From NCBI GenBank assembly GCA_033675265.1, contig JAUJYZ010001120.1, forward strand, positions 62,001-126,000: DNA of 64,000 nt, read 5' to 3'. The notes beneath the pieces are model-generated. The model did not search any database. It had not been told where the DNA came from and worked only from the letters and a program-made list of their open reading frames with translations. Source of the DNA: Actinostola sp. cb2023 (lineage: Eukaryota > Cnidaria > Anthozoa > Actiniaria > Actinostolidae). Both the position numbers and the translations under genes were made by a program. The first letter of the stretch is position 1. Each line of letters begins with the position of its first letter. This document shows, piece after piece, positions 3,858 through 28,800 of this stretch.

Positions 3858-4060
3858 TAGAGTCGTAGTGGGAAACCTACGGTACGGAGTTCCGGTCACA
3901 ATATGGAATCGATCGCGAAGACATTCGACCAATCACAGCGCGCAAAATCATCACTCAACCAATCAGAATGCTTGGATACGGCATGATGATGGCGCGATAC
4001 GGTCACGGTACGGCACGAACCGTACTATAACTACTTCCCACTCATACGAAAACGATTCTA
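3858..4060. mobile_element. TA-flanked MITE 'GTGGGAA', copy 1
   Basis: Begins TAGAGTCGTAGTGGGAAACC and ends CCCACTCATACGAAAACGATTCTA. The internal sequence includes GACCAATCACAGCGCGCAAA and AACCAATCAGAATGCTTGGA and paired CGGTACGG words. Three further copies lie at 24,198-24,391, 36,770-36,968 and 38,418-38,631. TA at both ends fits the TA target duplication of Tc1/mariner-type non-autonomous elements. Confidence 0.85.
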
Positions 4061-5246: not shown

Positions 5247-6662
5247 TTAAATTTGGCTGATGTTACGCGAGGCGTTTCCTCCTTCGATCTCGTCCACTGG
5301 CTTCCTCTCCTCCTCGAGTTCGCGCCTCTCTTTATCTTGGTTGTAAAAATAACCAAAATTGGAGACAATAACGGGGACGGGTAGAGCTAGCGTCAAAACA
5401 CCTGCGATTGCACACATTGATCCGATGACTTTCCCCCATGTAGAAATGGGCGCCTTGTCGCCATAACCAACGGTTGTCATGGTAACGACGGAGAACCAGA
5501 AGGCTTCGGGTATACTTGAGAAGTGAGCGCTCTCAACGTAGAAAACAGCACTGGAGAAGATTATAACCCCCATAAGTAGAAAGAACGTTAGGAGTAGCAG
5601 CTCGCGCATACTTGCTTTCAGGGTTTTGCCGAGAACCTTGAGACCCCTGTAGTGACGTGAGAGCTTGAAGATGCGAAATACACGTATCAAGCGAAGTATA
5701 CGAAGAAAGGCGATGAGAGAACCGTTCTTTTTGGAATCAAATGAGCTGCCGATGCCAAGAATAATGTAATACGGCAAGACGGCCACGAAGTCGATGATGT
5801 TTAAAAACGAACGCACAAAGTCTAACTTTATGGGCGCAGCGATGAAGCGCACAATAAGTTCAAACGAAAACCAGATAACGCAGAAGATTTCGATCCTGTT
5901 GAGTGCAGAGTTACTGTCGTTGCGAGTTTTTCGTAGCTCGGGCAAAGTTTCGATGCAAAAAATGACAATTGATAATAGAATCACTCCAACGGACAAAACG
6001 GCCAAGATTTTCGCTGGAATGGAGGAGTGCGGATACTCGAATAGCTTCCACACGTTTCTCAGGATGACGTTGTTGGGCATCGGCGGAGGATCCTCCATCG
6101 AATCTAAACAGAATTCTTTGAGAAAATCTGGGGAAATTAAATCTTGTATTTCGAAAAATTCAATTTCCCCAAGGAAAGTTCGCTTGTCGAGATCCACCGG
6201 CCAGAGAAGGTTGCCGTTCGATTGGTAGAAGTATAAAATCGACTCGAAAGCCACACGATTGCGATCGAAGAAGTACTCGTTCTTGTTCGCGTCAAAGAAA
6301 TGAGCACGTTTTTCTGGGCTGCCTAGCAATGACGTCGGATATCGCGCCAACGTACTCTCCAAAGTTTCATAATACATCCCACTTATGTTGATTTTAACTC
6401 GCTTTTCTTTCTTCTTCGGAGTTTTGGGTTCTTTGTGGATGGTGATAGCGGCCGGGTGAGCGTTTCGGATTCCATGTTCAATGCTCTTACTGTCGTGTCG
6501 CTTCTCGTCGGCTTCCGCTGTTCTTTTCGAGGGAGAAAAACCGGGATAGCCACGCGAATCTGAAGGTCTTCTACATCTCCACGACCCATCGAAACCCTCG
6601 CCGGCTAAGCCATAGTTTTCATTCTGGAGAGCTTGGGCTCCTGATACCAACACGGCCTCCAT
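5247..6662 (-). CDS. Shaker-type voltage-gated potassium channel (Kv1-like), single exon, 471 aa
   Basis: Pore-forming alpha subunit of a delayed-rectifier or A-type K+ channel, acting as a tetramer in the plasma membrane. Seen: T1 tetramerisation domain at about residues 88-185 (KINISGMYYETLESTLARYP); S1 216-238; S2 257-276 with FELIVRF; S3 283-304; S4 317-338 with Arg or Lys every third position (LRILRLIRVFRIFKLSRHYR); S5 352-376; selectivity filter TVGYGD at 397-402; S6 with the PVP gate hinge at 428-430. The T1 and membrane core are complete and the length is typical. One exon carries everything, as reported for some cnidarian Shaker genes. The N-terminal 85 residues are polar, without an obvious inactivation ball. 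The end -SQI fits a class I PDZ ligand. Unusual pore-mouth residues are listed under findings. Family assignment is firm; the start codon is the first in-frame Met. Confidence 0.96.
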   Translation of the reverse strand: MEAVLVSGAQALQNENYGLAGEGFDGSWRCRRPSDSRGYPGFSPSKRTAEADEKRHDSKSIEHGIRNAHPAAITIHKEPKTPKKKEKRVKINISGMYYETLESTLARYPTSLLGSPEKRAHFFDANKNEYFFDRNRVAFESILYFYQSNGNLLWPVDLDKRTFLGEIEFFEIQDLISPDFLKEFCLDSMEDPPPMPNNVILRNVWKLFEYPHSSIPAKILAVLSVGVILLSIVIFCIETLPELRKTRNDSNSALNRIEIFCVIWFSFELIVRFIAAPIKLDFVRSFLNIIDFVAVLPYYIILGIGSSFDSKKNGSLIAFLRILRLIRVFRIFKLSRHYRGLKVLGKTLKASMRELLLLTFFLLMGVIIFSSAVFYVESAHFSSIPEAFWFSVVTMTTVGYGDKAPISTWGKVIGSMCAIAGVLTLALPVPVIVSNFGYFYNQDKERRELEEERKPVDEIEGGNASRNISQI

Positions 6663-9575
6663 GAAGATTCCAAACTTTCACTTTGTTGTTGATCATCCGC
6701 TGATTCGGCCGTCTTGCCAATTTTCTTGCAAAGACTACAACAGATCAAGTTGAAGAACTATAGATATCCGAGTGGTTTAGTATTGTCCACAATTTGCATA
6801 AAGACGCAGATGGAGCAGCAGACTCTACTGCCCACTGGGGATGACACTCGTCAACTGAGCAGCCAATTCTACGTGTCTCTGTAAGCGAAAGGAATAGTCA
6901 CTACATCCTGACACCGTATGTCCTCCCGAGGCGAAAGAACTGGAAGAACAGACTTGAGCAAAGTTACAGAGGAAATAGAATTACGCGAAGCTCACGTGAC
7001 CAGAGATCTTGAGCAGCTGGCGTGGCGATTGGCAAAAATACAATCGTGTATTCGTTTCTTAATTCTGTGAATAAAACGCGACTAATCGGAATCTTCCTAC
7101 TTTCTTCACCTCAAACGTCGCGGTCAAAAGGCCAGCGTCTTCTTCTGTTGTTATTGAGTGTAGGTCCTGATCCTCTAAAGCTTGTTTTATAACTGCAAGG
7201 GTGGGATTTCTTTTTGCGTAGATTATTCTCTGATGAAATACTATTTTAGTGTAAGTATACAGTGCAACATCTTGTCTTGATAGCTGCTTTGAATTTTTAA
7301 TGAGTTAGACCGCTGAGCAGCAGAAGTAATTCATTTCTTCCTACCAATTTGAAGGCCTTTGATATCAACACTTCATAATAATGTTATTAAATCAGTTTAA
7401 TAGAGCAATAGAGCAATTCCAAAGGTCAAACTTCCATCAAATTTCGCTGAATTTGGGTAAGAAAGGTTTTTAGGAAATAAACTCGTGATATCTTTTGACA
7501 TGAATTGCATTACCGTTGAGCATCTTCGACACCAACAACTCACTATGGAAACGAGAATTTAACTCAGTTTTTCAATTCCATTCGGTTAACTGATGACTGC
7601 CACACTGTCCTGAGTCATGCTTTAATATTTGATGTCTATCTTTCAAGCTTTGTGGAGTACGTAGTATACCGGCTAAAGCCCAATACATCCGTCTGCGAAG
7701 AGAATTATATCGAGTAAAGTTTATTTCGTTTTGTCTTTTATCCGATTCCACTTATTTGAAGACTATGTTGGTTTAGCACTACACAATGCTTCAAGCCTCA
7801 AGGCGAGCTTTATACAGTTAAAACCCTTTTTACAAATGAGAGTAGCGGTTAAAGTACTGAATACATGTATACGCCGCTAAAATAACGACCAACAGATAAT
7901 ATTCATTCGCCGACTGAACGAATAGAAATCAATTCATCTCAAATGTATTATCGCAAAGCCAGGCCACTATTTAAAAATTAAGTAATTTTAGCGATTTCCA
8001 TCTTTGCATGGCACACACATATATATCAAAAGCTCAGTCTTGAAAAGCCTTCAAACGAATTGTCTGTCATTTGCAATTTTACGCATTGGAAAAATAAAAA
8101 TTGGGGGAATTCTATGCAGAACGAATTGGGGAAGTTTCTCTTTTACTCAAGTAAAAAGATCGTTAATTTTTGTGTTGACTTCAGTAAATGAAAAATATAT
8201 TTTTTTAGCGACAATATGGCATGCAGTAGTGAGCCAATCCGAAAAAAGAACGTATGTATGTTATAGCAACGGTGAACTGAGAAACACGGTACACGCTGTT
8301 AGCATATGCTAAATAAATACTTACAAATGCGCGATGATGGCAAATGTTTTGACCGCGTAATTATTCAACGAGTAAAAGGTAAAACTACTGTCTCGTAAAA
8401 ATAAACTGAGCGTTGACCGTTGAAATGCTGGCCTATGCTGGATTATTATCGAGGTGCGAAGTGCATCATAGTAATTATACAATTGAATAACATAATTCCA
8501 CAGAAATGCAATTTATCAAAAAAAAACAAAAAAAAACTGCTCAATAAATTGGATTGTTTAAATAATTTTGTTATTATTACGTTACTGTTCTCTCTTTCGA
8601 TTTACTTTCGATTTAATTCCAAACATGCGCGCTTTTTCTGTTCTTCGCATCCGGAACGTAATCAGTTTCGCTTTGCTCCATGTGTGAGCTTATTTCCGTT
8701 CCCTGCAGCTATATACAGATGTTTGTTTGCAAACATATGAGTGATAGACGTTTTTATAATTAAAATTAGATGGTGTGTACAAATTTATGCGTATATATTT
8801 GAAAGTCCTTTTTCCTGGTGTTCAATTCATTTTCGCAACTTCGCACCAGCGAAGCACTTTGATTTTTTACAAAAAAATACCTAATCGCGCGCGCGGCTTT
8901 AAAGTCATCGAACAAGAAATAAAACACTTTTAACTCATGCATGGTCGGTTTATCTGCGAGTTTAAAGGTTAAGTGTTTCACCTGTTTCTTGATATAGAAT
9001 GAAAGGGAATATTTTAAAAGAAGAAAAGCAGTAAATATAGATTATAAAAATACAGAACGCTCACTGTTCAACTTAAGCTTCTACTCGACATATTTCTAGA
9101 AAGAAAGAATGAAAAATGACTGAATAAACTAATGAATAACTTGATTTCACAAAAACTCAAACACACTCGGCATAAACGCCATGATTTCCATGCCGTATCA
9201 ACAAACTTAATCTAGATACACAAACGACTAAACAAACGATGGTCGGGTTTGTTCTGTGATACTCTCTACTCGGCGTACAACTTGTTCTTGCGAATTAGGT
9301 TACCCAGGCAACGAAATCTCATACCAAACACCCCCTACCTCCATACCCATAGGTACTTACTGCACGAGGGGTGGGAGGTGGAGTTTACATATTACTCCTA
9401 TCGTCCAGAGTCCACTCGAGTTGTATCAGTTCTTCCTTTTCTTCAATACAATTGACCAATCTTAAAAATACACAAAATTCTGCTTAGCCTCGCATTCAGG
9501 ATCGGAGTCTAGCTTATTTTGTTATTCAATTTTTTTCTTTTGTTTTCGGCATCTTGGAAGTGAGCATGAGGCTAA
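6663..9575. other. Intergenic and upstream region of the K+ channel
   Basis: About 2.9 kb, mostly AT-rich. No domain-like open frame was recognised on either strand, nor any strong tandem repeat. The first few hundred bases right of 6,662 should contain the 5' UTR and promoter of the channel gene. Confidence 0.5.
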
Positions 9576-10491: not shown

Positions 10492-13400
10492 CTAAGGATA
10501 TTTGACTGGCTTTACGCTGTCTACGTGCTCTTGGCAATCGCAACATCTCTCGCACGTAACCGCACAGCTCCAACACGTCACGACGTGTCCGCACGGAACA
10601 AAAGCGCACGTCTTGTAGTCTTTCTTGCAAAGTTTACACAGAAATCTTTCCTTGAAAATCTTCTGTTGTTGCTTGGCTAATGGAGTCATTCTCAAGTTGT
10701 TGGCTATGTCGGCGATGGGTGTTTCTTTGTCGTTTTCAGGACAAACAACTTCGCCGCCATCAGGTTGTTTGCGTGGACTCGATGATGGCGTCTTCGTAGG
10801 GGTTGAACTTGCTTCACTGGGCGTGGCAACTCTTTTTGGAGTTGGAGTACGATCTGGTACAGTAAGAAAACCACTACGAGGACTGAAATCTGGTTCGTCC
10901 ATCTTTCTTGGTAAATCTGGTTCAAATTTGAAAACCTGTTTGTCCAGTCGTGGAATAGTTCTTGGTGTAGTCGGTTCAAGTTTGAAAACATGTCTGTCCA
11001 GTCGTGGACTAGTTCTTTGTGTAACTGGTTCAAACTTGAAAACCGGTTGGTCCGGTCTTGGAGTTCTTGGTGTATCTGGGCCAAACTTGAAGACCAGTTT
11101 CTCTACGACTAGTCTAGGAGTCCTTGGAGTGGGGCCTGATCCAACTTTAAAAGCCTGTTTGTACAACATGGGCGTCCTTGGTTCGTCTAAAACTAGTTTC
11201 TCCAGTCTAGGAGTGCTTGGTGTGTCTGGTCCAAATTTGAAGAACTGCGTATCTGGTCTGGGAGTCCTTGGTGTTTGTATTCCACATCGTATTTGCATAG
11301 ATCTCGCCTTCTCGTCTGCTACCAGTCTCCACGCGTACTCAAATGACTCGACCACAGTCCTTATTACGTCATATTTATACAATTTTGGTGTCTTGTATTT
11401 TCTGTCTTTTCTGTGCTTGAGTAATGACGTCAAGGTCTTGAAGGCATTGGTCTTGTGTTTGGAGTCGCTGACCCAGTCACTTGCACACTCGTGAGTGTAA
11501 AAGGTGCAAAACTCGACCGTTGCGCGATGGAGATTTCTAGCAGTCATTCTGTTGTCCAGTTTGTAAGCTATCTTGTAGCATCGATAGTCTTCTTGGATTT
11601 CAATAAAGAAGTTCTTTCCTTTGTGCGAAGGGTATAAGCCTGATGCATAGTGATACCTAAAACACAACGAGCGTGAATAATATTAGAAAAGAAATAAATG
11701 AATGGATGAGTGAATGAATAAATGAATACATAAATGAATACATTATAAAGAAATGAGCGAATGAATGAAGAAATAAATGAAGAAGTGTATGAAGAAATAC
11801 ATGAATGAATGAATGAATGAATAAACAAATGAATGAATGAATGAATGAATGAATGAATGAATGAACAAATGAATGAATGAATGAATGAATAAACAAATGA
11901 ATGAATGAATGAATGAATAAACAAATGAATGAATGAATGAATGAACAAATGAATGAATGAATGAATGAACAAACTGAATGAATGAATGAATGGACAAATG
12001 AATGAATGAATGAACAACTGAATGAATGAACAAATGAATGAATGAATGAACAAATGAATGAACGAATGAATAAACAAATGAATAAATGAATGAATAAACA
12101 AATGAATGAATGAATAAACAAATGAATGAATGATGTAGGTTTTCTTCGATTGGTTTATCTCTAAACTTACTCGTCAATAAGAGCCTTGTCGCAGTTACCA
12201 AAGACCCGCACTGCATCTCTACACACTGCAATAATGACGTGTTCTTGAAAACTATTGGTGGCGTGAAACAGCTCGGACCCGTATGTCCGTTCAACTGTCT
12301 CCATCTCCGACAGCAACATATTTTCAGCTTCCTCGCTCGACACTCCCTTTAACCGCGCATGCTCGGCACGCAGTCCCTCGAGGGCCTCGAATTCGCGTGG
12401 AGCATTCCAATCTTCCATGATAAGTGGGTGGTTGGTGACAGCGGTCAATGCGTCCTCGCCATGCTCACTACGGAGCAACAGAGCATGGAAACGAGGTCGT
12501 CTGTCACGTGATAGGATGTATTTCCCTTGTAAGTGGTTTTGCTTCACGTTTAAGTAAAATTGATGCCTGAAATTTAACGTAGGAAAACGTTAATTTATAG
12601 AGGTTTTAGCAATTTCTCAAACAAATGTGGAGTCGCATCAACTACCAACACGTCTGTTTGATTGTTGCCCGGATTTTCGTAGAATATCGTCATTATTTTG
12701 ACCACCATCACATGTACGTATTATCCTATAATCATTAACACCAGCAGCACCTGTACTGTTATAATCATATAGCATACTAGGTAGATCAGCAGAACATCAC
12801 CATCAAACCATCGTCATCATCACCATTACCATCATACACACATACATAAATTGTATCACTACCATCTTCATCACCATCCGTTACCATCATCATCATCTTC
12901 ACCATCATCATTACCATCAACATCATACATACATACATAAATTATATCACTACCATCTTCATCACCATCCGTTACCATCATCATCATCTTCACCATCATC
13001 ATTACCATCAACATCATACATACATACATAAATTATATCACTATCATCTTCGTCATCATCATCATTATCTCCGTCATCATTATCATCACCACCACCAACA
13101 TTTGCTTCAGTTCATCTTCATCAGAAGTGTAACATCTGGTTAGATCAGGAGCATCGACATCACCGTCATCATATCATCACCATCATCACCATCATCACCA
13201 TCATCACCACTACCAACATTTGCTTCATTACATCTTCATCAGAAGTGTAACATCTGGTTAGATCAGGAGCATCGACATCACCGTCATCATATCATCACCA
13301 TCATCACCATCATCACCACCACCAACATTTGCTTCATTACATCTTCATCAGAAGTGTAACATCTAGTTAGATCAGGAGCATCAACATCGCCGTCATCATC

Positions 13401-13538: not shown

Positions 13539-14952
13539 CCACCACCAACATTTGCTTCATTACATCTTCATCAGAAGTGTAACATCTAGTTAGATCAGGA
13601 GCATCAACATCACCGTCACTGTCATCATCATCGTCGTCTACATACACACATACTACTTCCTTCGGTTATAATGATTGTACGGCTTCATGGTTCAGTGTTT
13701 CCACTAGCTGCATGTGGAACCATAAGCTCACCTTGTATTTTCTTGAATTATCTGGCTTTGATTTACAAAATACTTGACTCTAAGGTTAAATCGGTACATG
13801 TTGGACTTTCCCATCTGCATTCTGATCTCGTTGCGTAGGTTCAACCATGTTTCTTGTCCTGTTTTATTGCAGAACTTTAACCCAAAATAATCCATTTCTG
13901 CCGTAAGCTTTAGTCGACGACAAACCTTGATACAAAAAGAAATGTTTATTATTGTACAATTAATTGCTACAATTGAAATATTTTTAGAAAAAAAAAATTA
14001 AATTAATGCCGGAATTTTCGCTACAGATATTGTTGATTTGTAATCAATCCCTGGAGATCTAAAGTACAAACACGTAGCGGCCATGTTGGAGGTACAAACA
14101 AGAGAAGCTAACGAGGAAAGCTTTGTTATCGGGATCCAACATGGCCGCCATGACGTCACAAATGCATGCAAACCAGCAATATGCGGAGAAATTCCACTAT
14201 TTAATCCTATATTTCATCATTAAAATTTACCGACACTTTTGTTCAGATATTTTCGATTTCCATGTCTAACCTACTAGCCTCATTTTGATGTCCCGCATCA
14301 TGTCCCTGACCGTGTATCCGCCATGTTGAAATAGGGTGTATACCAGTTTAAACCGTGGTGCCGAGAACTCTTAGCCGGATAAAGTCCGCCGTTATTGTGG
14401 CATGAATTGATCCTATTTTGTACATAAATACTAGTTTTTACACAAGGCGTGACGATGAGTTCACTAACATAACACTTGAACTGCTTTGAAATGCATGTCT
14501 TGTTTACTGAAAAGCATAATCTACTTCGTTGTAAGTAGAGCTAAAGAGAAAGTGCAAGCACGCTTTCCTAACCGATACTCTTTGGCTGTTGGTACTGACA
14601 CACTGAAACAGAAAACTAATCTTTGTACTGAATTCGACCTATGTAATATCACTACAAGTTAAAATAAGGAAACTGCAAGACTACAAGAGCTACAAAACTA
14701 CAAGAGCTACAAAACTACACGACTATACAAGGCTACAAGACTACACGACTATACAAGACTACAAGACTACAAGACTACACGACTATACAAGGCTACAAGA
14801 CTACACGACTATACAAGACTACAAGACTACAAGACTACACGACTATACAAGGCTACACGACTTACTTCTTCAAGAAGCCATCTTCCTATAGCGTGTTTCG
14901 CAAGAGTAATGTTCTCCGTAGTTCCATCTAGTAAAATCACTGTACACAGCAT
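10492..14952 (-). CDS. MYLIP: MYLIP/IDOL-like E3 ubiquitin ligase (FERM + RING), four exons, ~613 aa
   Basis: Coding exons in transcript order: 14866-14952, 13732-13925, 12171-12566, 10492-11656. All have GT-AG borders and the phases join. In vertebrates MYLIP/IDOL uses its FERM domain to recognise membrane proteins such as LDL-receptor family members and its RING to ubiquitinate them. Seen: N-terminus MLCTVILLDGTTENITLAKH; F1 lobe with VCRRLKL, MDYFGLKFCNKTGQETWLNL and RVKYFV; F2/F3 across exons 3 and 4, with YASGLY and NLHRATVEFCTFYTHE near residues 262-282; RING at 566-600 (CKLC ... CGH ... CWSC ... CCDC). Human MYLIP is about 445 aa. The excess is a repeat and Ser/Thr-Pro-rich linker at about residues 353-530, placed between FERM and RING. 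The introns carry microsatellites. Identification rests on colinear FERM and RING motifs and is strong; the function is by homology. Confidence 0.93.
11695..12133. repeat. (AATG)n microsatellite in MYLIP intron 3
   Basis: Long run of GAATGAATGAAT interrupted by AACAAATGAATG and AATAAACAAATG units. The minus-strand frames over it translate into Ser/Phe/His/Ile strings and are not genes. Confidence 0.97.
12790..13640. repeat. CAT-rich microsatellite and ~115-bp minisatellite in MYLIP intron 2
   Basis: The left part is (CAT)n/(CATCAC)n with a duplicated block containing TACATACATAAATTATATCA. The right part has five copies of a unit combining CCACCAACATTTGCTTCA, CATCTTCATCAGAAGTGTAA, CATCTAGTTAGATCAGGAGC and a variable CAT/CAC run. 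Confidence 0.93.
14077..14149 (+). mobile_element. 73-bp element with GCGGCCATGTTGGA ends, copy 1 (MYLIP intron 1)
   Basis: GCGGCCATGTTGGA at the left is matched by TCCAACATGGCCGC at the right. The interior AACAAGAGAAGCTAACGAGG recurs inverted in the second copy at 40,087-40,158 inside PRMT5 intron 2. Confidence 0.7.
14690..14865. repeat. Short tandem repeat beside MYLIP exon 1
   Basis: Irregular repeats of CTACAAGACTACACGACTAT and ACAAGGCTACAAGACTACAC in MYLIP intron 1, reaching the splice donor of exon 1. Confidence 0.85.
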
Positions 14953-17094
14953 CTTGAAGAATCTCTGAGAATTGTTCAAACGTTTGCTTCAAGTCTGTTA
15001 GTGAGGTCTTTTCGCCTTAGCTGTAGCGAAGTAATGAAGACAGCGCTCTGGTGGAATCAAAGAGATTTCACTAGAGAATTCCCTAGAGGCTGGGTACAAT
15101 CATGACATTGCATTGTGCTATGAGTTCGTCATTAAGTTCGTTCCAATCGTACAATGGTAGTTTAATGGAGGAGAGTTGACAGAAGCACATGAATGTATGT
15201 TCATCACTTCGTGAGCACAATCATATCAAACAAGGCCGGGCTAATTTAAAAACTAAAAGCCAGATTCAACATTCATTCATGGAGAGAAGAGGAGTGGGTG
15301 TGGCCGACATCAACATATATGACACACGAAATTAATACGTATAAAAGCCGGTTTATGCAGCCATGAATTTAAAATAAGATTTATGGGAAAACAAAATAGA
15401 CTAAAAAGTAATAAAGGGTGAAATAGAAAGCTGAGAGATTGAAAAGGAAAAACGAGACCCCAGGTATGAGTCTAAAATGTTTCGACAATTTCATGACACT
15501 TTCGTCGCCATTGACTGATTGTACGACTAGTCGTAGAACCTTGGACGCTTGTAGCCTGTGTAACTAAGTGAAGCTCAGTCCAGACACTAATGCGTTTTCC
15601 TATTAAAAACGCACACATTTTGATGGTTTTGGCCTTGTGTCGACACACTAAACGATCGAACTTTTCAAAGTGAAGACATTCCGTTGAAACCGCTGGCACC
15701 ACGACTGAGTATCGATCTAGAATCTGATATTATGAAAATAATTTTGTTTTCAAGTTTGATTTCGGTCTTCGATGCTTGATTTACACGTATAGATAAAGAC
15801 AAACCATTTTCAAATCCAGTTCAACTTTGTAAGCTAGCTATAGGCAAATGAGCGTTTTCAAAGCGTATCAGCGGTTAGTGTGGACGGGCAAAAAAGCTGC
15901 AAGATCTCTAGTGTGGACGTTTCTGGAAACGCAAAACGCGTTTAGAAGACGTGCAAGTGTTGACGAGGCCTCACTCAGGTACTAGTGACAGCAATATCAA
16001 GACTTCTTTAATTAGGTTTCAAGTAATTAACAATAACTTGATCTGAAAACTGGTGGCGGCGGGAACTGTTCGTTTGTTTGGTCACCTACTGACACGCGAA
16101 TCCATCCAATACCAATAAATTTCAAATGAAAATTCCACATTTTATTTTTCCATACTTTATATTGAAATCAACCTCGTCCCAGGCCACATTTCTCTACTTG
16201 GCGGTTTTCAAGAGAAGTGATTGTGATACTGGGTACAAGGTTCAGAGCTGCTGGTTGGGAGTGTTTGCCGGTTGTGCCTATCCGAGACAGTGGTCTGAAA
16301 TAGTGAGAACTCGGTTTCCACGTTGCCGACTGTCGAGATTGTTGACATTGTAACCTAGCCTGTTTTTGCATACATGTGGCAGACGTTCTCTTTAACGTAT
16401 CTGAAATATATCTAGAACTGGAAATAACTCGTCCCGTGAACGGACGGAATTACCTCTAAAACTGGGTTGGCCAGGTTTAGATCCCGGGAGGAACTCAACA
16501 AAATTGGGAGGGGCTGTGCCTCCAGGTTTTTGAACCCTGACCTTGTTTTAGTGCAAACATTTCGATTTTCATACCCTGGTGAAACAACGCGTGGTGTTAC
16601 TTCGTTTTAATACCGTATTTCTGACTGACTTATCGTCATTTTTCAGTGTAAATTACCTAATTTGCTTTCCTGTTTCGGTGCGCGGTGGAAGGCTTGAAAA
16701 CCCGACCATGCGTCGTTCTAAAAGAGTGCCGCTACAAGAGCTTGATATAGTCGACGGGTATTCTATAATTGCTCCGAAACTGGTAGTGTTAAAGTTAGAT
16801 GAAATGTCTTCAAAGTGTCGGTCGGTCGGTGGATAAAGTTTATAATTGCATCAATAGTACCTGCTGTCTAACAAGCAGTATGTCTGCTAGACAAAGAATA
16901 ATACAGTTTGCCGCCTGTGAAATGGAGCTTTAAATGTAAAGGTACGTAGTTACACCAAAGAGTTTTTTTTTTTTCTGGACATTTTTACAAGTAACTGATA
17001 AAAAAACTTGTAAACTTGTAACACACATACAGTGAAATCATATCCAAACTTGAGGTTATTTCAACGTTCAGACAGGATTTCCCGTGTTTGTTTT
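14953..17094. other. Intergenic between MYLIP and the peptide genes
   Basis: Holds the 5' flank of MYLIP on its left. Several short open frames on both strands (for example around 15,500 and 16,150-16,370) show no recognisable domain and overlap each other on opposite strands. I annotate no gene. Confidence 0.5.
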
Positions 17095-17100
17095 AATGAA

Positions 17101-17250
17101 CCAATCAGATTTCGTCTTTATGGTGACGTTGTACTTCAAAACATAAGTCAGCCAATCAGATTTCGTCTTTATGGTGACGTTGTACTTCAGAACATAATCA
17201 GCCAATCAGATTTGGTTTTTGAGATGACGTAGTTACAAAGTACAATAAAA
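17101..17250 (+). promoter_or_regulatory. CCAAT/TGACG repeat promoter of peptide gene 1 (three units)
   Basis: Three units of about 50 bases begin CCAATCAGATTT at 17,101, 17,152 and 17,202. Each carries an inverted-free CCAAT box, and TGACGTTG (units 1 and 2) or TGACGTAG (unit 3) about 20 bases later. A possible TATA-like ACAATAAAAACC follows, about 55 bases before the start codon. NF-Y and CREB/ATF binding is inference from the words. Confidence 0.65.
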
Positions 17251-17299
17251 ACCGATTGAACACCAATACGACGTTATTACTTCAGTGAAAAGACTAAAC

Positions 17300-18437
17300 A
17301 TGAAGAACTTCCTCTTGGTTTTGTGTGTTGTAATGGTCGCTGCCTCTTGTTTCCAAACTACGATGGCAGGTAAGTGACCGCCTAAACTCGGCCCCATTTT
17401 TGTAACTATTCACCACCCCCTATACTACTTCTCTTGGCCGTCTCTTCAAGTGCAAAAATACCCTTCAAGAAGTTGGCCTCTTTGGTTCTTGTGAGCGAAT
17501 TTTAACTTGACAAAACAAAAATAAGACAAAACAACAACAACAAAAACAGCCGAATGTTCGACTAGTTTTCTAAAAGTATTTTTTTCGTGAGTACTGTTGT
17601 ACTTGTTGTAACTATTTTCTATTTATGTACAATACAATAAAAACCCGCATATAAGAAACTGCGGATTAAGAACCTCCAGGCTGAAATTTAGCCACTCAGC
17701 CTGACAAATGAAGCAGGTTCGGCTTATGAGAAAATGACTAAAGCTCAGAACACACCGGTACAGTTGGTGCTGAATACGCCGAGAAATATAATATTTACTA
17801 TACAGTTGGGTTGTTAATGTTTAGTGTGAATATTAGACCTTTCAGGGTCAATGTATACACCATATCAGGAACAATATTTATTTATTTTGCCCTGTAAATA
17901 AGAACCTGTTAAGAATTATATATATACATAAATATTTCCTTTTTATATGTATCTATTTTAAATGTAATTATGTCTTAATTAAGTGTCCCCGATTAGTGTA
18001 CCACTTGTGGTATGCTAGAAGTCTGACACGTTAATAAAGTTTATGTATGTAACCTATTCGGCCTGTTTTCTCACTAGACACCCAATATATAAGAACCATT
18101 TCAGCCTGACTTGAAAAAGTATGGGTTCTTTTATGCGGGTTTTTACTGTATATACACTGTATGTACCTATGTAATTCTCGATTTTAGCTTGACCATTGTA
18201 AATATATTGTAAAAACGTTTTCTAAAAATGTCCCTCTTTTCTAGATGGTAAGCTTACATATTTCCCTAAAACCCACTCTGTCTATTTTCTTTCCATTTTT
18301 CAGCGAAAAAAGAGGAGCAGTGTAAGTCAGATTACGACAGGGCATTCTGCGACAAGTCTTGCAATCGCGGTGATTGTCACAGTGTTGGGCAAAGAGATTG
18401 CAAAGATGGCTTGAAGTGTTGCATGTGTCCACAGTAA
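17300..18437 (+). CDS. Small secreted eight-cysteine peptide, gene 1 (67 aa)
   Basis: Coding exons 17300-17369 and 18304-18437. A third, noncoding exon starts at about 18,947 after a ...TTTGTAG acceptor and carries AATAAA at 19,033-19,038. Exon 1 encodes a hydrophobic signal peptide starting MKNFLLVLCVVMVAAS. Exon 2 encodes the mature chain with spacing C-x8-C-x3-C-x4-C-x7-C-x5-CC-x-C, ending -CCMCPQ. The mature N-terminus is Lys-rich (KKEEQ). Eight cysteines imply four disulfides and an extracellular role, such as an antimicrobial peptide, a small cysteine-rich coral peptide or a toxin-like peptide; I cannot choose among these. The signal and mature regions are on separate exons, as in many fast-evolving secreted peptides. 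The paralogue lies 2.36 kb downstream. Confidence 0.88.
17633..18150. mobile_element. ~518-bp TIR element inside intron 1 of peptide gene 1
   Basis: Ends TACAATAAAAACCCGCAT ... ATGCGGGTTTTTACTGTA are imperfect inverted repeats with TA at both borders; interior AAGAAC and CAGGCTGAA words are also paired. It is absent from intron 1 of the duplicate gene (265 bases against 934), so it probably arrived after the duplication. Confidence 0.75.
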
Positions 18438-18946
18438 AGCTATAGTGAAGGGTAAGGACAGTTCAGTTATTTGCGGTACCAGCTATAAAGAATATGTCAC
18501 TGGTCGTTTTCAAACAAGTTGAACTTCGAGATGAAATCGAGATGAAAACTTCAAACATGGCGACACAATTTTTTTTTTTTTTACATGGCGACACAACTTA
18601 GATTAATTGAATATCAACCACGTCATTTGCAATAAGAAAAACAATCCGCCTAGTTTCAGGCTTTCCCGATATTTACCAAAGAGATAAGAATAGAACTACT
18701 ATGACGTCACTTAAATGGCCGACGCACTAGTACTCAGGTCTCGCGCTTCGTACTCTGTCAGGGTAAAACGCCCTGGAACTAGCCGCTAGAAAACCACATT
18801 TCGTTATCTATTCTATCTGATCAAAATTAAACTGAGCCCTCTTCAATACAAGTAAGGGGGTTTTGGAACGGACTAATTTGCCTCTATTTCTTCACTGATT
18901 CCCAATAAGTCTACTGAATAAATCTCTGTTTTTGTTCTGTTTGTAG

Positions 18947-19052
18947 GTCCCTGGTGCTACTGTACAGCAGACACGCCCATGTTTACATAGATTTCAGTGT
19001 TGTTTGTAGTACTCTGTTATCACCTGCGACTGAATAAACAAGAAAACAAATC
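18947..19052 (+). other. Noncoding 3' exon of peptide gene 1
   Basis: Preceded by TTTTTGTTCTGTTTGTAG and nearly identical to 20,756-20,862 of the duplicate gene. AATAAA at 19,033-19,038. The splice donor after the stop codon (GGTAAGG at about 18,451) supports a spliced 3' UTR. Confidence 0.75.
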
Positions 19053-19410
19053 CCGTGTTCAGTGACATGTGTTCTGAATATATTAAATTGTAAATATATG
19101 GCATACACATTTTATAAGCCTCCCCCTCTCACCTCGATTAAGCGCCAAACCACTTCCTTCCCCTCTCACAAAAGACAAATACATACCAACACAAGACGCG
19201 GGGTTCTAGACAATCTACGTTCATAAGTGAAATCATTTTGAATATTGTCCAACTCGTAGCTTACAACTTTGGATGCGAAACAGCATTCTTAAAATACAGC
19301 GAAACCAAACTAGGTCATTTCAACTACATTCAACTACAAAAAAAAATGCTTTATTGAACCTATCAGATTACTTCTTTGTCGTGACGATGCGCACTAGAAA
19401 ATACTGCCAA

Positions 19411-19610
19411 CCAATCAGATTTTGTCTTTATGGTGACGTTGCACTTCAGAACATAATCAGCCAATCAGATTTCGTCTTTGTGGTGACGTTGCACTTCAGA
19501 ACATAATCAGCCAATCAGATTTCGTCTTTGTGGTGACGTTGTACTTCAGAACATAAGTCAGCCAATCAGATTTGGTTTTTGAGATGACGTAGTTACAAAG
19601 TACAATAAAA
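19411..19610 (+). promoter_or_regulatory. CCAAT/TGACG repeat promoter of peptide gene 2 (four units)
   Basis: Units begin CCAATCAGATTT at 19,411, 19,461, 19,511 and 19,562, each followed by GGTGACGTTG or GATGACGTAG. Same arrangement as upstream of gene 1 but with one more unit. It ends in the same ACAATAAAAACCGATTGAAC segment before the transcription start. Confidence 0.65.
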
Positions 19611-19659
19611 ACCGATTGAACACCAATACGACGTTATTACTTCAGTGAAAAGATTGAAC

Positions 19660-20125
19660 ATGAAGAACTTCCTCTTGGTTTTGTGTGTTGTAATGGTCGC
19701 TGCCTCTTGTTTCCAAACTACGATGACAGGTAAGTGTTTTAATCTTGTAGCCCATATAAGGTAATGAACACGCATAATTTCCAACCAGCTTAAGTGCAGA
19801 AACGCCTTGCAAGGCCCTTTTTAGTCCCTCTGAAGACGTACAAAACACGCAAGACAAAAACGTACAACACGAGCAGAAACCAAAAATATTTTCAGCCCAC
19901 AACCTGGACTTGAACGAAGCTGCCAAAATCATCTCTTTATCGGCCTCGGAACTTTCCTATCCCCTATTTACCTTCCTTGTTCTTCGTTTCTCAGCGCCAA
20001 ACGATGTTTGCGAGTCGGACGATGACATAGCATTCTGCGCCACGTCTTGTAACCGTGGCGATTGTACATCTGTTGGAGACAGGGATTGTAAAGACGGCTT
20101 GAAGTGTTGTATGTGTCCACAGTAA
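19660..20125 (+). CDS. Small secreted eight-cysteine peptide, gene 2 (66 aa)
   Basis: Coding exons 19660-19729 and 19995-20125. Noncoding third exon from 20,756, with AATAAA at 20,842-20,847. The signal-peptide exon is identical to gene 1 except for its last residue. The mature chain keeps the same cysteine spacing (x8, x3, x4, x7, x5, CC, x1) and the CNRGDC and DCKDGLKCCMCPQ segments, but its N-terminal part is acidic (ESDDD) where gene 1 is basic. A recent tandem duplication that includes promoter, exons and 3' UTR is seen directly. The function is unknown: secreted disulfide-rich defence, venom-like or structural peptide. Confidence 0.88.
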
Positions 20126-20755
20126 AGCTGAACGGTAAGGACAGCCGAGACCATGATTTTTTACGTCACTTTGAACACGTTTTCTATCTGGCAGTAGTTT
20201 GACACCATTAGATAGTTCAATTTGTTTCTAACTTTTAGCACTAAAAGAACTTTATAGCCAAAGTTAATATATGGAATAAAAGGGGGGTCACCGACTTCGT
20301 TGGGGTGTAGATTGAGGATTTTTTTTGTCACTTTATAGGGCAAAAACATGCGAATGAACATGATCTTGAACGAAACTTGATTTGGTAGGGACTAGAGTAG
20401 ATTAACATTCATTTTCGCTCCCCAAACGAAACGACATTTCTTCAGTCTAGATCATTCCAACATGAAAACCTCAAAAGTCGCTTACACTGTGGAACGCTTA
20501 CACTGCGGTGGAACAACGTTTTCAAAACTACTTTAGAAGACGCGAACTCTGATGACAAAAAGAGAAAAAATATTTTCTTCAGTCGCATATAATTTACCCC
20601 AAAATTAGATCAATCGGTCTTTTTTACTGAGTGAACCGTTTTTGTATCGAATTTGCCATTTCAATAATAATATATAATAATATATTAAAGGTTATTCTAA
20701 AACACACTGATTTCTGATAATAAAAGTCTAATAAATGTTTTTGTTCTGTTTGTAG

Positions 20756-20862
20756 GTCCCTGGTGCTACTATACAGTAAACACGCCCATGTTTACACATA
20801 TTTCAGTGTTGTTTGTAGTACTCTGTTATCACCTGCGACTGAATAAACAAGAAGACAAATCC
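20756..20862 (+). other. Noncoding 3' exon of peptide gene 2
   Basis: Starts GTCCCTGGTGCTACTATACA after a TTTGTAG acceptor. The polyadenylation signal is followed within about 55 bases by the first unit of the G-rich minisatellite. Confidence 0.72.
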
Positions 20863-20902
20863 AGTGTCGTGTCGTTTACATGCTTTGCTTGTACAGCACT
20901 CA

Positions 20903-22335
20903 GGTGGAACTCTATCCATAGCCTGCAAAACAGGTGTTCACAAGGGGGAGGGGAGGGAGGGTGGAACTCTATCCATAGCCTGCAAAACAGGTGTTCACAA
21001 GGGGGAGGGGAGGGCAGGTGGAACTCTATCCATAGCCTGCAAAACAGGTGTTCACAAGGGGGAGGGGAGGGCAGGTGGAACTCTATCCATAGCCTGCAAA
21101 ACAGGTGTTCACAAGGGGGAGGGGAGGGCAGGTGGAACTCTATCCATAGCCTGCAAAACAGGTGTTCACAAGGGGGAGGGGAGGGCAGGTGGGAGGGGAG
21201 GGGGAGGGGAGGGCAGGTGGAACTCTATCCATAGCCTGCAAAACAGGTGTTCACAAGGAGGGAGGGGAGGGCAGGTGGAACTCTATCCATAGCCTGCAAA
21301 ACAGGTGTTCACAAGGAGGGAGGGGAGGGCAGGTGGAACTCTATCCATAGCCTGCAAAACAGGTGTTCACAAGGGGGAGGGGAGGGCAGGTGGAACTCTA
21401 TCCATAGCCTGCAAAACAGGTGTTCACAAGGGGGAGGGGAGGGCAGGTGGAACTCTATCCATAGCCTGCAAAACAGGTGTTCACAAGGGGGAGGGGAGGG
21501 CAGGTGGAACTCTATCCATAGCCTGCAAAACAGGTGTTCACAAGGGGGAGGGGAGGGCAGGTGGAACTCTATCCATAGCCTGCAAAACAGGCGTTCACTA
21601 GGGGGAGGGGAGGGCAGGTGGAACTCTATTCATAGCCTGCAAAACAGGTGTTCACAAGGGGGAGGGGAGGGGAGGGCAGGTGGAACTCTATCCATAGCCT
21701 GCAAAACAGGTGTTCACAAGGGGGAGGGGAGGGGAGGGCAGGTGGAACTCTATTCATAGCCTGCAAAACAGGTGTTCACAAGGAGGGAGGGGAGGGCAGG
21801 TGGAACTCTATCCATAGCCTGCAAAACAGGCGTTCACAAGGAGGGAGGGGAGGGCAGGTGGAACTCTATCCATAGCCTGCAAAACAGGTGTTCACAAGGG
21901 GGAGGGGAGGGGAGGGCAATGGAACTCTATCCATAGCCTGCAAAACAGGTGTTCACAAGGGGGGAGGGGAAGGCAGGTGGAACTCTATCCATAGCCTGCA
22001 AAACAGGCGTTCACAAGGGGGGAGGGGAAGGCAGGTGGAACTCTATCCATAGCCTGCAAAACAGGTGTTCATAAGGGGCGAGGGGAGGGCAGGTGGAACT
22101 CTATCCATAGCCTGCAAAACAGGCATTCACAAGGGGGAGGGGAGGGCAGGTGGAACTCTATCCATAGCCTGCAAAACAGGCGTTCACAGGCGTTCACAAA
22201 GGGGGAGGGGAGGGGAGGGCAATGGAACTCTATCCATAGCCTGCAAAACAGGCGTTCACAAAGGGGAGGGGAGGGCTAATGGAACTCTATCCATAGCCTG
22301 CAAAACAGGCGTTCACAAGGGGGAGGGGAGGGCAA
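20903..22335. repeat. ~58-bp G-rich minisatellite, about 25 copies
   Basis: Unit: GGTGGAACTCTATCCATAGC, CTGCAAAACAGGTGTTCAC, AAGGGGGAGGGGAGGGCA. Most variation is in the number of GGGGA blocks and GTGTT/GCGTT. The GGGGGAGGGGAGGG part has G-quadruplex character on the plus strand. Confidence 0.97.
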
Positions 22336-22362
22336 AAATTGCCCCATTCCATAATTATGGGA

Positions 22363-22783
22363 CAATGAGGGTTTATCACGTAATTTCAAAACTCATAGGA
22401 CAAAAAATGATTATCATAGCTGGAAAGAGCTCGTTGAAATTAGTAAAAATGTGAAGTTTGGAAAAGATCGCTCCACAAATTACGAAGATATGAATTTTCA
22501 AAAATCGAAATTTTATATGAAAACCTTTGGAAATTACGCTTGGAGGCAACTCTTGCCTCCAACAAAGGTTTTCATACAAAATATCGATGTTTGAAAATTC
22601 ATATCTTCGTAATTTGTGGAGCGATCTTTTCCAAACTTCACATTTTTACTAATTTCAACGAGCTCTTTCCAGTTTAGCCTCCTTTGCAGCCGTTCTAAGA
22701 ACGGCTGCAAAGGAGGCTATTTCCAGCTATGATAATCATTTTTTTGTCCTATGAGTTTTGAAATTACATGATAAACCCTCATT
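22363..22783. mobile_element. ~420-bp fold-back element with ~200-bp arms
   Basis: Left arm from CAATGAGGGTTTATCACG (22,363), right arm ending ATGATAAACCCTCATTG (22,783); the centre is GGAGGCAACTCTTGCCTCC near 22,545. The arms match almost perfectly except for a 47-bp insertion with target duplication in the right arm (22,673-22,719). Confidence 0.9.
22673..22719. mobile_element. 45-bp palindromic micro-insertion with 7-bp target duplication
   Basis: The palindrome 22,675-22,719 (TAGCCTCCTTTGCAGCCG ... CGGCTGCAAAGGAGGCTA, single-base centre) sits between two copies of TTTCCAG (22,666-22,672 and 22,720-22,726). The uninterrupted left arm of the host fold-back element shows the empty site with a single copy. 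Confidence 0.8.
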
Positions 22784-22887
22784 GGCACAACAGCATATTT
22801 CTAATTCAGCATCAAATTAAGAGTCAAAGACAATATTCAATCAATTTAGTGTGATGTATACCGAGTCCAACACAACAAGTATTGTCG

Positions 22888-25800
22888 TTAAAGACCGATG
22901 ACGTAAGACCTTCCAGAGGGATTATGTATTGGTATAGGTGATGGGCGTGACATACACCATTCATACCAAACCTTCTGACGTGTACATTTACGCCACATGT
23001 GGACAGTGATTGTTGCATCTTTCTCAACGTAAACTGGATTCTGGGAGATAGAACAGAAGAGAAATAATGGTCAAATGGTAAGCGCGCTACCACAGGAATC
23101 CCATCTCAATTCGTTTCTATTTGCTTTACCACAGGAAGCCCATAATTTTTTTTTTTTTGTAGTATAAAAAAAAACAGCAGTGCAGCACAGCGCAGCGCAG
23201 ACTTCAAACTCAAACTTCAAACTCAACCCAGGGAATTCCTTTCTGTCCTCCGAAACCAAGATCAGGGTTTAGTAACATCCTGGTCCCAATAGAGGGTGAA
23301 CAGCACCGTCCGTTGGATAAATCATTATCCAGTGGATACATTTATTTAGATGACAACATCAACGTATCCACTGGATAAGGATCTATACAATGGATAGCGC
23401 TATCCACTCTTTAAACTGGAGTATCAGTCATGTGATTCTCACCTGAATAGGAAAGTAGAAAGGAAACCAACTAAACATGCCATCAGAGTGAGTCTTGGGA
23501 TGAATACCTAGAAATAGAAGCACAAGAATATCTCTAAGTCCTACGGAGACAGAGCATTCTCCGTTGCTGGCCCCAAGCTTTGGAACGCTCTACCCACCGA
23601 TTTAAGAACTGAACAATCACTAAGAACATTTAAAGACAAATTAAAGACTTATCTGTTTAAACAGTTTTTATCCTGATTGAGTATATATATATATATTTTT
23701 TGTTACCTACGCGTTTTTCATATATTTCTATACATATGCTTTATTTCACATCTTCTTTTATTGTATATATATATATTTTTCATCGTCTTTTCTTTATGTT
23801 CTTTATTGTAAAAAGCATAGAGACATTGTGTATGCGTTTTTAAGATATAAATTATTATTATTATTATTATTAGTACACAGGGAGCCCACATAGTTTTTCT
23901 TAGGTTTTGGTTTTTGCTCCCTGTGGTGAACTTAAAAATCTATATCTATCAATAATCACTTGTGGAATAAACACACTTTCACTTCGTTTATCGTTTTCTA
24001 AGAAAAACACAATACAATACAATACAATGCAATACAATGCAATGCAATACAATACAGTACAATACCATACAATACAATACAATACAATACAAATATATGT
24101 ACATGTAACACTATACATATGCACTGTACGCGATGATTCATCCATGGAGTGTTTGTGATCAAGAGCAACATTTTGTGTGACATAGGTCATTGTTAAGTAG
24201 AGTTGTTTTCGTATGAGTTGGAAACCTACAGTACGGAGTTACGGTCACATTGTATTCAACCAATCACAGTGCACAAAATCATTTTTCAACCAATCAGAAT
24301 GCTTGGATACCGCACGATGATGACGCGATATGGTCACGGTACGGCACGAACCGTACCGTAACTACTTCCCACTCATATGAAAATGACTCTATCGTGTCAA
24401 CCATAGAACGATTGGCTGATGAAATAAAGCAACTTTGCATGAGCTATTCTAATGAAGGTTGGCAAAATAACATTACAAAGCAAATGTTTATAAACAGTGA
24501 GTAGTGCTACAATGTATATACATGTATACAACTTACTAATTTTGACGTCATTAAAGAGGATTGCCTCAAAGTACCCAGCAAAACCATGAATCATTGCGCT
24601 CGTCTCGACTTCGTAGTTCAGTGTTATATAACGTGAATTGTCAATGATTTTATCTGAAAACAAATAGCACGTACAAGTTTACATGTACATTATACAGTAG
24701 TTGATTATTTGAGCATTGCATTACTATACTGTTGTTGTTGTTGTTATAAGGTGGTGATGATAGCGGTCGTGTACAACTGTACCTCTATTTGGATGTACAA
24801 ACGTAAAGCATGTCTGTGGTTTAGCCAACTTGTACACATTGTGAAGCCTAACGACGTAGGGAGTCTCATATGGTGCCTGAAATGAAATCATGGTAATTCA
24901 GAAGACGTACGGACAACACTAATGTGAAAGAGTAAGCAGTTTTATGCTGCAGCTGATTTTTATGAAAGGCTAGAAAATCGCCAAATTCACCAAGACTTAC
25001 TTGTTGCCACAAAAAATATGGGGTATGGCAGAAATTGGGGTATGGCAGAAATTGGACTTTGGAGTGATTTTTTTTTTTTTTTTTTTGGAGTTGGAGTGAT
25101 GCCGAGGTATGGCAATTTGGGCTTCTTGTGGCGATGACGTATTGCAGTTATTCAAAATATAAGCGTATTGGTTCACATACATTTGTAGAAGTTGAATGCC
25201 AATCTATATGCAGCACAGGAATCCCAAATGAATGATTGAAAGCACACTTTTAAGAAACCGCACATCTTCACCACAGGAAGCCCAATTACTGTGGTGCTCC
25301 GCACACTTTTAAGAAACCGCACATCTTCACCACAGGAAGCCCAATTACTGTGGTGCTCCACACACTTTTAAGAAACCGCACATCTTCACCACAGGAAGCC
25401 CAATTACTGTGGTGCTCCACACACTTTTAAGAAACCGCACATCTTCACAACAGGAAGCCCAATTACTGTGGTGCTCCACACACTTTTAAGAAACCGCACA
25501 TCTTCACAACAGGAAGCCCAATTACTGTGGTGCTCCACACACTTTTAAGAAACCGCACATCTTCACAACAGGAAGCCCAATTACTGTGGTGCTCCACACA
25601 CTTTTAAGAAACCGCACATCTTCACAACAGGAAGCCCAATTACTGTGGTGCTCCACACACTTTTAAGAAACCGCACATCTTCACCACAGGAAGCCCAATT
25701 ACTGTGGTGCTCCACACACTTTTAAGAAACCGCACATCTTCACAACAGGAAGCCCAATTACTGTGATGCTCCCCTGGTTCATGCAAAATGTACTCACATG

Positions 25801-28800
25801 TGGTCCTTTGTTGTCAATTTTACTTCCTTGAGCCAAATCGTAGTGTAGTTTTGGTGCACACAGAGGAGACAGGTATGATGTGTACTCACAAGGGATACTT
25901 ATACCATCATCTACATTATACAGAATATCAGTTAGACTAAACAAGGTTTACTGTATGATAATATATTATCATTGTATCATCAACATCATCACTACACCAT
26001 CACCATCATCACCAACACCATCTTCATCAGCAGCACCATCTTCAGCAGCAGCAGCAGCACCAGCACCATCATCATCATCAGCAGCAGCAGCAGCACCATC
26101 ATCAGCAGCAGCAGCAGCACAACCGGCATCACCATCAGCACCATCTTCATCATCAGCAGCACCATCATCATCATCAGCAGCAGCACCATCATCATCATCA
26201 GCAGCAGCACCATCATCATCATCAGCAGCAGCACCATCATCATCATCAGCAGCAGCACCATCATCATCATCAGCAGCAGCACCATCATCATCAGCAGCAG
26301 CAGCACCATCATCAGCAGCAGCAGCACAACCGGCATCACCATCATCTTCATCATCAGCAGCTGCAGCACCATCATCATCAGCAGCAGCACCATCATCATC
26401 ATCAGCAGCAGCAGCACCTTCATCAGCAGCAGCAGCAGCAGCACCATCATCATCATCAGCAGCAGCACCATCATCACCAGCAGCAGCACCATCACCATCA
26501 GCACCATCATCATCATCAGCAGCACCATCATCAGCAGCAGCACCATCAGCAGCAGCACCATCCATCAGCAGCAGCAGCACCATCACCATCAGCACAACCA
26601 ACACCATCAGCAGCAGCACAACCAACACCATCAGCAGCAGCACAACCAACATCATCAGCAGCAGCACAACCAACATCATCAGCACAACCAACACCATCAG
26701 CAGCAGCACAACCAACACCATCAGCAGCAGCACAACCAACACCATCAGCAGCAGCACAACCAACACCATCAGCAGCAGCACAACCAACACCATCAGCAGC
26801 AGCACAACCAACACCAACATCCGCAGCAGCACAACCAACACCATCAGCAGCAGCACAACCAACACCATCAGCAGCAGCACAACCAACACCATCAGCAGCA
26901 GCACAACCAACACCATCAGCAGCAGCACAACCAACACCATCAGCAGCAGCAGCACCAACACCAACATCCGCAGCAGCACAACCAACACCATCAGCAGCAG
27001 CACAACCAACACCATCAGCAGCAGCACAACCAACACCATCAGCAGCAGCACAACCATCACCATCAGCAGCACAACCAACACCATCAGCAGCAGCACAACC
27101 AACACCATCCGCAGCAGCACAACCAACACCATCAGCAGCAGCACAACCAACACCATCAGCAGCAGCACAACCAACACCATCAGCAGCAGCACAACCATCA
27201 CCATCAGCAGCACAACCAACACCATCAGCAGCAGCACAACCAACACCATCCGCAGCAGCACAACCAACACCATCAGCAGCAGCACAACCAACATCATCAG
27301 CAGCAGCACAACCAACACCATCAGCAGCAGCACAACCAACACCATCATCCGCAGCAGCACAACCAACACCATCAGCAGCAGCACAACCACACACCATCAG
27401 CAGCAGCACAACCAACACCATCAGCAGCAGCACAACCAACACCATCAGCAGCAGCACAACCAACACCATCAGCAGCAGCACAACCAGCAACACCATCAGC
27501 AGCAGCACAACCAACACCATCATCCGCAGCAGCACAACCAACACCATCAGCAGCAGCAGCAGCACAACCAACACCATCAGCAGCAGCACAACCAACACCA
27601 TCAGCAGCAGCACAACCAACACTATCAGCAGCAGCACAACCAACACCATCAGCAGCAGCACAACCAACACCATCAGCAGCAGCACAACCAACACCATCAG
27701 CAGCAGCACAACCAACACCATCAACAGCAGCACAACCAACATCATCAGCAGCAGCACAACCAACACCATCAGCAGCAGCACCATCACCATCATCAGCAGC
27801 AGCACAACCAACACCATCAGCAGCAGCACAACCAACACCATCAGCAGCAGCAGCACCATCACCATCATCAGCAGCAGCACAACCAACACCATCATCAGCA
27901 GCAGCACAACCAACACCATCAGCAGCAGCACAACCAACACCATCAGCAGCAGCACAACCAACACCAACACCATCAGCAGCAGCACAACCAACACCATCAG
28001 CAGCAGCAGCAGCACAACCAACACCATCAGCAGCAGCACAACCAACACCAACATCCGCAGCAGCACAACCAACACCATCAGCAGCAGCACAACCATCACC
28101 ATCAGCAGCAGCACAACCAACACCATCAGCAGCAGCACAACCAACACCATCATCCGCAGCAGCACAACCAACACCATCAGCAGCAGCAGCACAACCAACA
28201 CCACCAGCAGCAGCACAACCAACACCAACACCATCAGCAGCAGCACAACCAACACCATCAGCAGCAGCACAACCAACACCATCAGCAGCAGCACAACCAA
28301 CACCAACATCCGCAGCACAACCAACACCATCAGCAGCAGCACAACCAACACCATCAGCAGCAGCACAACCAACACCAACACCATCAGCAGCAGCACAACC
28401 AACACCATCAGCAGCAGCACAACACCAACACCATCAGCAGCAGCACAACCAACACCATCAGCAGCAGCACAACCAACACCATCAGCAGCAGCACAACCAA
28501 CACCATCAGCAGCAGCACAACCAACACCCAGCAGCAGCACACACCAACACCATCAGCAGCAGCACAACCAACACCATCAGCAGCAGCACAACCATCACCA
28601 TCAGCAGCAGCACAACCAACACCATCAGCAGCAGCACAACCAACACCATCAGCAGCAGCACAACCAACACCATCAGCAGCAGCACAACCAACACCATCAG
28701 CAGCAGCACAACCAACACCATCAGCAGCAGCACCATCACCATCATCAGCAGCACAACCAACACCATCAGCAGCAGCACAACCAACACCATCAGCAGCAGC

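Follow-up and report, generated by a model that had tools for sequence, protein, structure and literature searches.

A tandem pair of predicted eight-cysteine secreted-peptide genes with near-identical flanks and divergent mature exons in the sea anemone Actinostola sp.

SCRiPs, which have a signal peptide and a mature peptide of 40-48 residues with a net charge that is mostly low or negative (PMC10892658, PMC2652719), are described by the cysteine pattern Cx6-7Cx4-6CPx3-6Cx4-6Cx5-6CCC (PMC2652719), and all 24 tabulated members end in CCC (PMC10892658). CjTL8 of the sea anemone Cnidopus japonicus is a 39-residue peptide with six cysteines in the frame C8C3C11C5CC (PMC5673964). The disulfide bonds of Ueq 12-1 have been determined by NMR and are, in eight-cysteine numbering, the 1-6, 2-5 and 3-7 bonds of beta-defensins with an additional 4-8 bond (PMC5450702). 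The frame of the beta-defensins (trans) is CX5-7CX3-5CX8-11CX4-6CC and that of the CS-alpha-beta defensins (cis) is CX6-15CX3CX9-10CX4-7CXC (PMC9604261), in which CxxxC and CxC are the invariant motifs (PMC5234102). The cis/trans naming of PMC5234102 is used here; the names are the opposite in PMC9604261. At the gene level, concerted evolution has been described for anemone sodium-channel toxin genes such as Nv1 (PMC6802032). The locus described here contains two predicted genes for secreted peptides, which are compared with these systems below.

Gene models, promoter arrays and copy number

Two genes of three exons each are predicted at 17300-19058 (copy 1) and 19660-20867 (copy 2) of the window, which is the whole 64,000-nucleotide stretch of DNA that was analysed. 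Their ATG codons, at 17300 and 19660, are 2360 nt apart, their coding stops end at 18437 and 20125, and the predicted precursors have 67 and 66 residues. Both copies have eight mature cysteines in the frame C-x8-C-x3-C-x4-C-x7-C-x5-CC-x-C (gaps 8, 3, 4, 7, 5, 0 and 1). These results agree with an earlier note on this DNA, in which two genes 2.36 kb apart, precursors of 66-67 residues, a common cysteine frame, and a nearly identical signal-peptide exon and 3'UTR exon were described. The span given there, 17300-20125, contains both coding regions but ends upstream of the 3'UTR exon of copy 2. The parts of the two genes are as follows.

17094-17299, plus strand: copy 1 promoter/5'UTR block; 197 of 207 aligned columns identical to 19454-19659
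17300-17369, plus strand: copy 1 exon 1, coding part, predicted signal peptide; donor CAG|GTAAGT
18304-18451, plus strand: copy 1 exon 2; encodes the mature domain with its eight cysteines as far as 18437, then enters the 3'UTR (14 nt)
18947-19058, plus strand: copy 1 3'UTR exon, AATAAA at 19033; 3' end approximate, placed at the end of the conserved block
19362-19659, plus strand: copy 2 promoter/5'UTR block, four CCAAT/TGACGT units and one decayed unit
19660-19729, plus strand: copy 2 exon 1, coding part, predicted signal peptide; one replacement relative to copy 1, A23T
19995-20134, plus strand: copy 2 exon 2; encodes the mature domain with its eight cysteines as far as 20125, then enters the 3'UTR (9 nt)
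20756-20867, plus strand: copy 2 3'UTR exon, AATAAA at 20842; 3' end approximate

The introns are predicted from splice signals and from conservation that ends at the predicted exon edges. All four have GT-AG ends, the last donor is located 14 nt (copy 1) and 9 nt (copy 2) past the stop codon, and both 3'UTR exons contain AATAAA. The coding part of exon 1 is 70 nt long, which places a phase-1 intron between the signal peptide and the mature part. The precursors have a hydrophobic leader, as judged by hydropathy alone, and the mature peptide has 43-44 residues if it is cleaved after residue 23. The signal peptide would be removed near this residue, and the mature domain would form a four-disulfide fold.

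Units of about 50 bp are repeated upstream of each gene, and every unit contains CCAATCAGA and then TGACGT 23 bp downstream. Copy 1 has three units (17101, 17152 and 17202) and copy 2 has four (19411, 19461, 19511 and 19562) plus a decayed unit from 19359; the offset from CCAAT to TGACGT is 23 in all seven intact units of the two genes. The two motifs resemble NF-Y and CRE-type sites and presumably function as such. CCAAT sites are also present at 57423 and 57474, but a third gene copy elsewhere in the window is rejected, as exon 1 and the 3'UTR exon each match just twice in the window. Sequence containing CAACCAATCAGA is present on both strands at 3945-3967, 24276-24298, 36848-36870 and 38509-38531, and seems to be a dispersed repeat with no relation to the promoter units.

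The assembly to which the window belongs (424 Mb, 1594 contigs) was searched by a procedure that scores the best candidates only. The precursor gives four matches at E <= 0.001, which are the two coding exons of each gene, and the mature part gives two matches at E <= 10, which are the two genes. Promoter plus exon 1 gives three matches, one of which falls within the promoter repeat at an offset, and the 3'UTR exon gives two, again the two genes. No third copy is therefore found in the assembly with these four queries among the best candidates scored, a search that paralogues sharing only the cysteine frame could escape.

Cysteine frame and candidate folds

Searches of Pfam (E <= 10) and of the PDB sequences give no match. 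The protein database gives no candidate for copy 1 alone and three candidates, none at E <= 10, for the two-sequence alignment, and Foldseek gives no match for the mature-peptide model. Exact peptide words were not found in the literature, and the identical cysteine frame was not found in the portions of main text covered for PMC5793123, PMC11952004, PMC6627431 (including its ICK section), PMC11896702 and PMC10985097. The pair adds to the known anthozoan secreted peptides an eight-cysteine frame without a relative among the matches from Pfam, the PDB and the protein database. The earlier note had recognised no family in the cysteine pattern and had proposed SCRiPs for comparison; the three databases likewise name no family, and SCRiPs are a sensible comparison, but the pair does not fit their definition.

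The pair resembles SCRiPs in that it has eight cysteines in the same order, three of them clustered near the C-terminus, a predicted signal peptide, and a short mature peptide of similar length and charge (PMC10892658, PMC2652719). Unlike SCRiPs, both copies have CCxC in place of the CCC triplet near the C-terminus. When the gaps are compared with those of the 24 tabulated SCRiPs, by frame and not by sequence, gaps 1, 3 and 5 are inside the ranges, whereas gap 2 (3 residues; range 4-6) and gap 4 (7 residues; range 3-6) are outside. Judged from its predicted peptides, the pair is not SCRiP by definition, though the SCRiP cysteine order is kept. The frame is also similar to that of CjTL8 (again compared without regard to sequence), as the core C8C3C12C5CC agrees with it within one residue, C4 being located inside the long gap of a peptide of 43-44 instead of 39 residues (PMC5673964). 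Unlike CjTL8 with its six cysteines, the pair adds C4 and C8 (PMC5673964), and these two are the predicted extra bonded pair on the Ueq 12-1 model. In a post hoc count, the CjTL8 core is found in 5 of 40,000 random eight-cysteine frames. The last eight cysteines of Ueq 12-1 are in the same order as those of the pair, although Ueq 12-1 has ten cysteines, a CCC tail and other gaps (PMC5450702). By analogy with Ueq 12-1, the fold is most likely SCRiP/beta-defensin-like, with C1-C6, C2-C5, C3-C7 and C4-C8 bonds.

The centipede family SLPTX 16 has the same cysteine order as the pair, C-C-C-C-C-CC-C. Snake three-finger toxins also share it, but are rejected because the 36-residue cysteine core of the pair is too short for three fingers, given the length of these toxins. 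The BcsTx3-type ICK is rejected because its order, C-C-CC-C-C-C-C, is different.

When the pair is read as a beta-defensin frame (8, 3, 12, 5, CC), two gaps are one residue longer than the published ranges allow. Beta-defensins as a whole have a wider range of gaps, and the frame of the pair fits this range. The beta-defensin fold is a three-stranded sheet in which the six cysteines are bonded 1-5, 2-4 and 3-6. A CS-alpha-beta (cis-defensin-type) fold, in which a helical CxxxC is bonded to the C-terminal CxC, is possible but doubtful. C2-x3-C3 and C7-x1-C8 of the pair correspond to the two invariant motifs, and both AlphaFold models place a helix at or beside CxxxC: the helix spans both cysteines in one model, while in the other it spans C2 and stops before C3, and a two-strand hairpin follows. 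The models thus show a helix near CxxxC and not a plain beta-defensin sheet, but the confidence of both is low (pLDDT 57 and 58, poor). In addition, when the pair is read as a CS-alpha-beta frame (8, 3, 12, 6, CxC), the strict pattern is missed because the third gap, x12, is two residues longer than the published 9-10, the vicinal CC is outside the motif, and Arg (R54, with the fourth motif cysteine at C56) occupies the position, two ahead of that cysteine, where Gly is usual (PMC5234102). Among the 40,000 random frames, again counted post hoc, the wide beta-defensin core is found in 508, the wide CS-alpha-beta core in 898 and both in 22, the former range being general background and the latter our own choice; the strict CS-alpha-beta range, which the pair misses, accommodates 149.

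Uneven divergence between the two copies

The two copies form a mosaic, in which near-identical flanks surround divergent introns and a divergent mature exon. Exon 1 is identical at 69 of 70 nt, the single change, A23 to T, being located near the expected signal-peptidase site, and the 3'UTR exon is identical at 105 of 112 nt. Divergence in the flanking blocks (promoter/5'UTR, signal exon and 3'UTR exon) is 1-6% (d 0.014-0.065), and within the window the promoter/signal-exon blocks match each other at E 1.6e-129. In contrast, the coding part of exon 2 is identical in 102 of 135 columns. The number of silent changes is 0 in 14.7 silent sites for exon 1 and 14.5 in 23.7 sites for exon 2 (Fisher p 1.4e-4), giving a dS of 1.27 for exon 2, a figure that, like the others on divergence, rests on two sequences and about 24 silent sites in this exon without an outgroup. 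When the flank sites are pooled, with noncoding sites treated as silent, the difference from the silent sites of exon 2 has a Fisher p of 2e-11. Four of the eight cysteine codons differ silently between the copies, and no cysteine is lost.

Exon 2 has 18.5 replacement changes in 105.3 sites (dN 0.20), and dN/dS (omega) is 0.16, or 0.16 and 0.17 for two alternative gap placements. In a codon bootstrap, dS is at least 0.50 without an upper bound, and omega is 0.01-0.50 and reaches 1 or more in 3 of 5000 resamples. Purifying selection acts on the mature exon. The earlier note had proposed that the genes are recently duplicated venom or defence peptides with a fast-changing mature part, which implies diversifying selection. 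The near-identical leader and UTR agree with this proposal, as does the accumulation before residue 43 (C3) of 12 of the 18.5 replacement changes, with an omega of 0.44 up to residue 42. However, omega is 0.05 from C3 onward and 0.16 over the exon, the silent sites are close to saturated, and no alignment of the introns is possible, so that this explanation is highly improbable, and neither recent duplication nor a fast-changing mature part is supported. The unchanged silent sites of the signal exon, against 14.5 of 23.7 changed in the mature exon, argue for a mosaic history and not for diversifying selection. It is a general caution that an identical leader joined to a different mature part need not mean fast evolution; here, the silent sites and introns suggest an old, constrained mature part and a recently homogenised leader.

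The charge of the mature N-terminus also differs from the earlier account, in which the segment KKEEQ of copy 1 was considered basic and the charge inverted between the copies. The net charge of KKEEQ is 0. Between residue 24 and the second mature cysteine, the net charge is 0 in copy 1 (four positive, four negative) and -5 in copy 2 (none positive, five negative), indicating that charge is lost rather than inverted. The whole mature parts have net charges of +1 and -5. By analogy, the peptides may have an extracellular role, as venom components or as defence peptides of the mucus, and the copies would then differ mainly in the patch before C3.

No homology above the level of 200 shuffles is detected between the copies by local alignment of intron 1 or of the 3' intron. 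The best local score is reached by 56 of 200 shuffles for intron 1, 29 of 200 for intron 1 without a MITE-like element, and 60 of 200 for the 3' intron. In a simulation with one intron and an indel model of our own design, this test detects homology in all trials at d 0.3, in 19 at 0.5, in 4 at 0.7 and in none at 1.0, with 20 trials per distance. The MITE-like element, in intron 1 of copy 1 (17632-18151, 520 bp), has a 26-nt terminal inverted repeat that is 92% complementary, with 468 nt between the arms. The 3' intron of copy 2 contains a dispersed repeat at about 20212-20349, with 32 matches including itself, the 31 others being on other contigs, while the 3' intron of copy 1 is nearly all unique, with one short match elsewhere in the assembly. 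Insertion of repeats adds to the divergence and accounts for part of the intron difference; the remainder is mostly unrepeated and yet cannot be aligned.

The near-identical flanks contrast with the silent sites in the mature exon and with introns that defy alignment, which disfavours a uniform recent duplication. The explanation that we favour, and to which we give about an even chance, is that this is an old tandem pair for secreted four-disulfide peptides, whose flanks have been made alike, probably through gene conversion, on either side of a mature domain under constraint. Ectopic gene conversion would copy a promoter/signal block and a 3'UTR block from one gene to the other and would halt where the introns no longer match. 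The conserved blocks do stop near the exon edges, as expected if diverged introns break homology there. The mature exon would be exempt either because it has diverged too far or because it is selected. As in Nv1-type genes, paralogues of a secreted peptide family would be homogenised; highly conserved copies are described for those genes, whereas in the pair the mature exon and introns are exempt (PMC6802032).

The same mosaic of young flanks and an old middle is predicted if the pair is a young duplicate in which recombination later replaced the middle of one copy (intron 1, exon 2 and intron 2) with that of a remote paralogue, since lost or absent from the assembly. This is unlikely, as it needs both breakpoints at exon edges, and a lost donor must be assumed because the four queries find no third copy among the best candidates scored in the assembly. 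Extreme regulatory or RNA-level constraint might instead keep the promoter, signal exon and 3'UTR near-identical without conversion. The conserved blocks follow functional parts, and the promoter units contain plausible binding sites, but such constraint must hold nearly every base, with no silent change in exon 1 and almost unchanged UTR blocks while the silent sites of exon 2 are near saturation, and no Rfam family is found at 14000-24000. We consider this distinctly unlikely.

If gene conversion is the cause, its copying of the promoter/signal and 3'UTR blocks would place both genes under one regulatory programme, probably that of the CCAAT and TGACGT arrays in the same secretory cells. This would be a simple means of maintaining joint control over a pair of secreted peptides with distinct products. 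A more far-reaching proposal is that the peptide has the cysteine hallmarks of both defensin superfamilies, CxxxC with CxC as well as a vicinal CC, in a single CCxC tail. It would then be an intermediate between cis- and trans-defensins, or a scaffold that works in both directions, and exon-bounded conversion that leaves the mature exon untouched would hold the gene pair under common control. This combination is quite improbable; if its cis/trans part is true, one disulfide map would bear on the interconversion of the two superfamilies.

Neighbouring features in the window

A tandem array with units of about 57 bp is located directly 3' of copy 2 (20901-22317), and a fold-back structure with inverted arms of 110 nt (97%) and 50 nt (94%) is located at 22358-22789. 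Very long reading frames of low complexity are present in several frames of both strands at 25844-29520, which is probably a simple-repeat tract. A long reading frame on the minus strand at 45435-46922 has a helix-loop-helix DNA-binding domain near its C-terminus.

Two further genes are located upstream of the pair on the minus strand. The one at 10495-12589 has exons for a FERM middle domain above the Pfam cut-off, a RING finger scoring 27.8 bits against a cut-off of 27, and a match to the FERM C-terminal domain that stays below threshold, and is probably FERM-RING ubiquitin-ligase-like. The other, at 5247-6677, is an uninterrupted reading frame for a Shaker-type Kv channel (BTB_2, Ion_trans). 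Among the best 120 of 3944 matches at E <= 1e-50 to this frame (456 residues searched), the closest named protein is that of Exaiptasia diaphana (84% identical), a partial Nematostella protein is 70% identical, and two of the many matches listed without a name are 83% and 78% identical. This single gene suggests, short of proof, a sea anemone and not a coral as the source. The only stony coral named among these 120 is Montipora foliosa, whose protein is 53% identical and is perhaps a paralogue.
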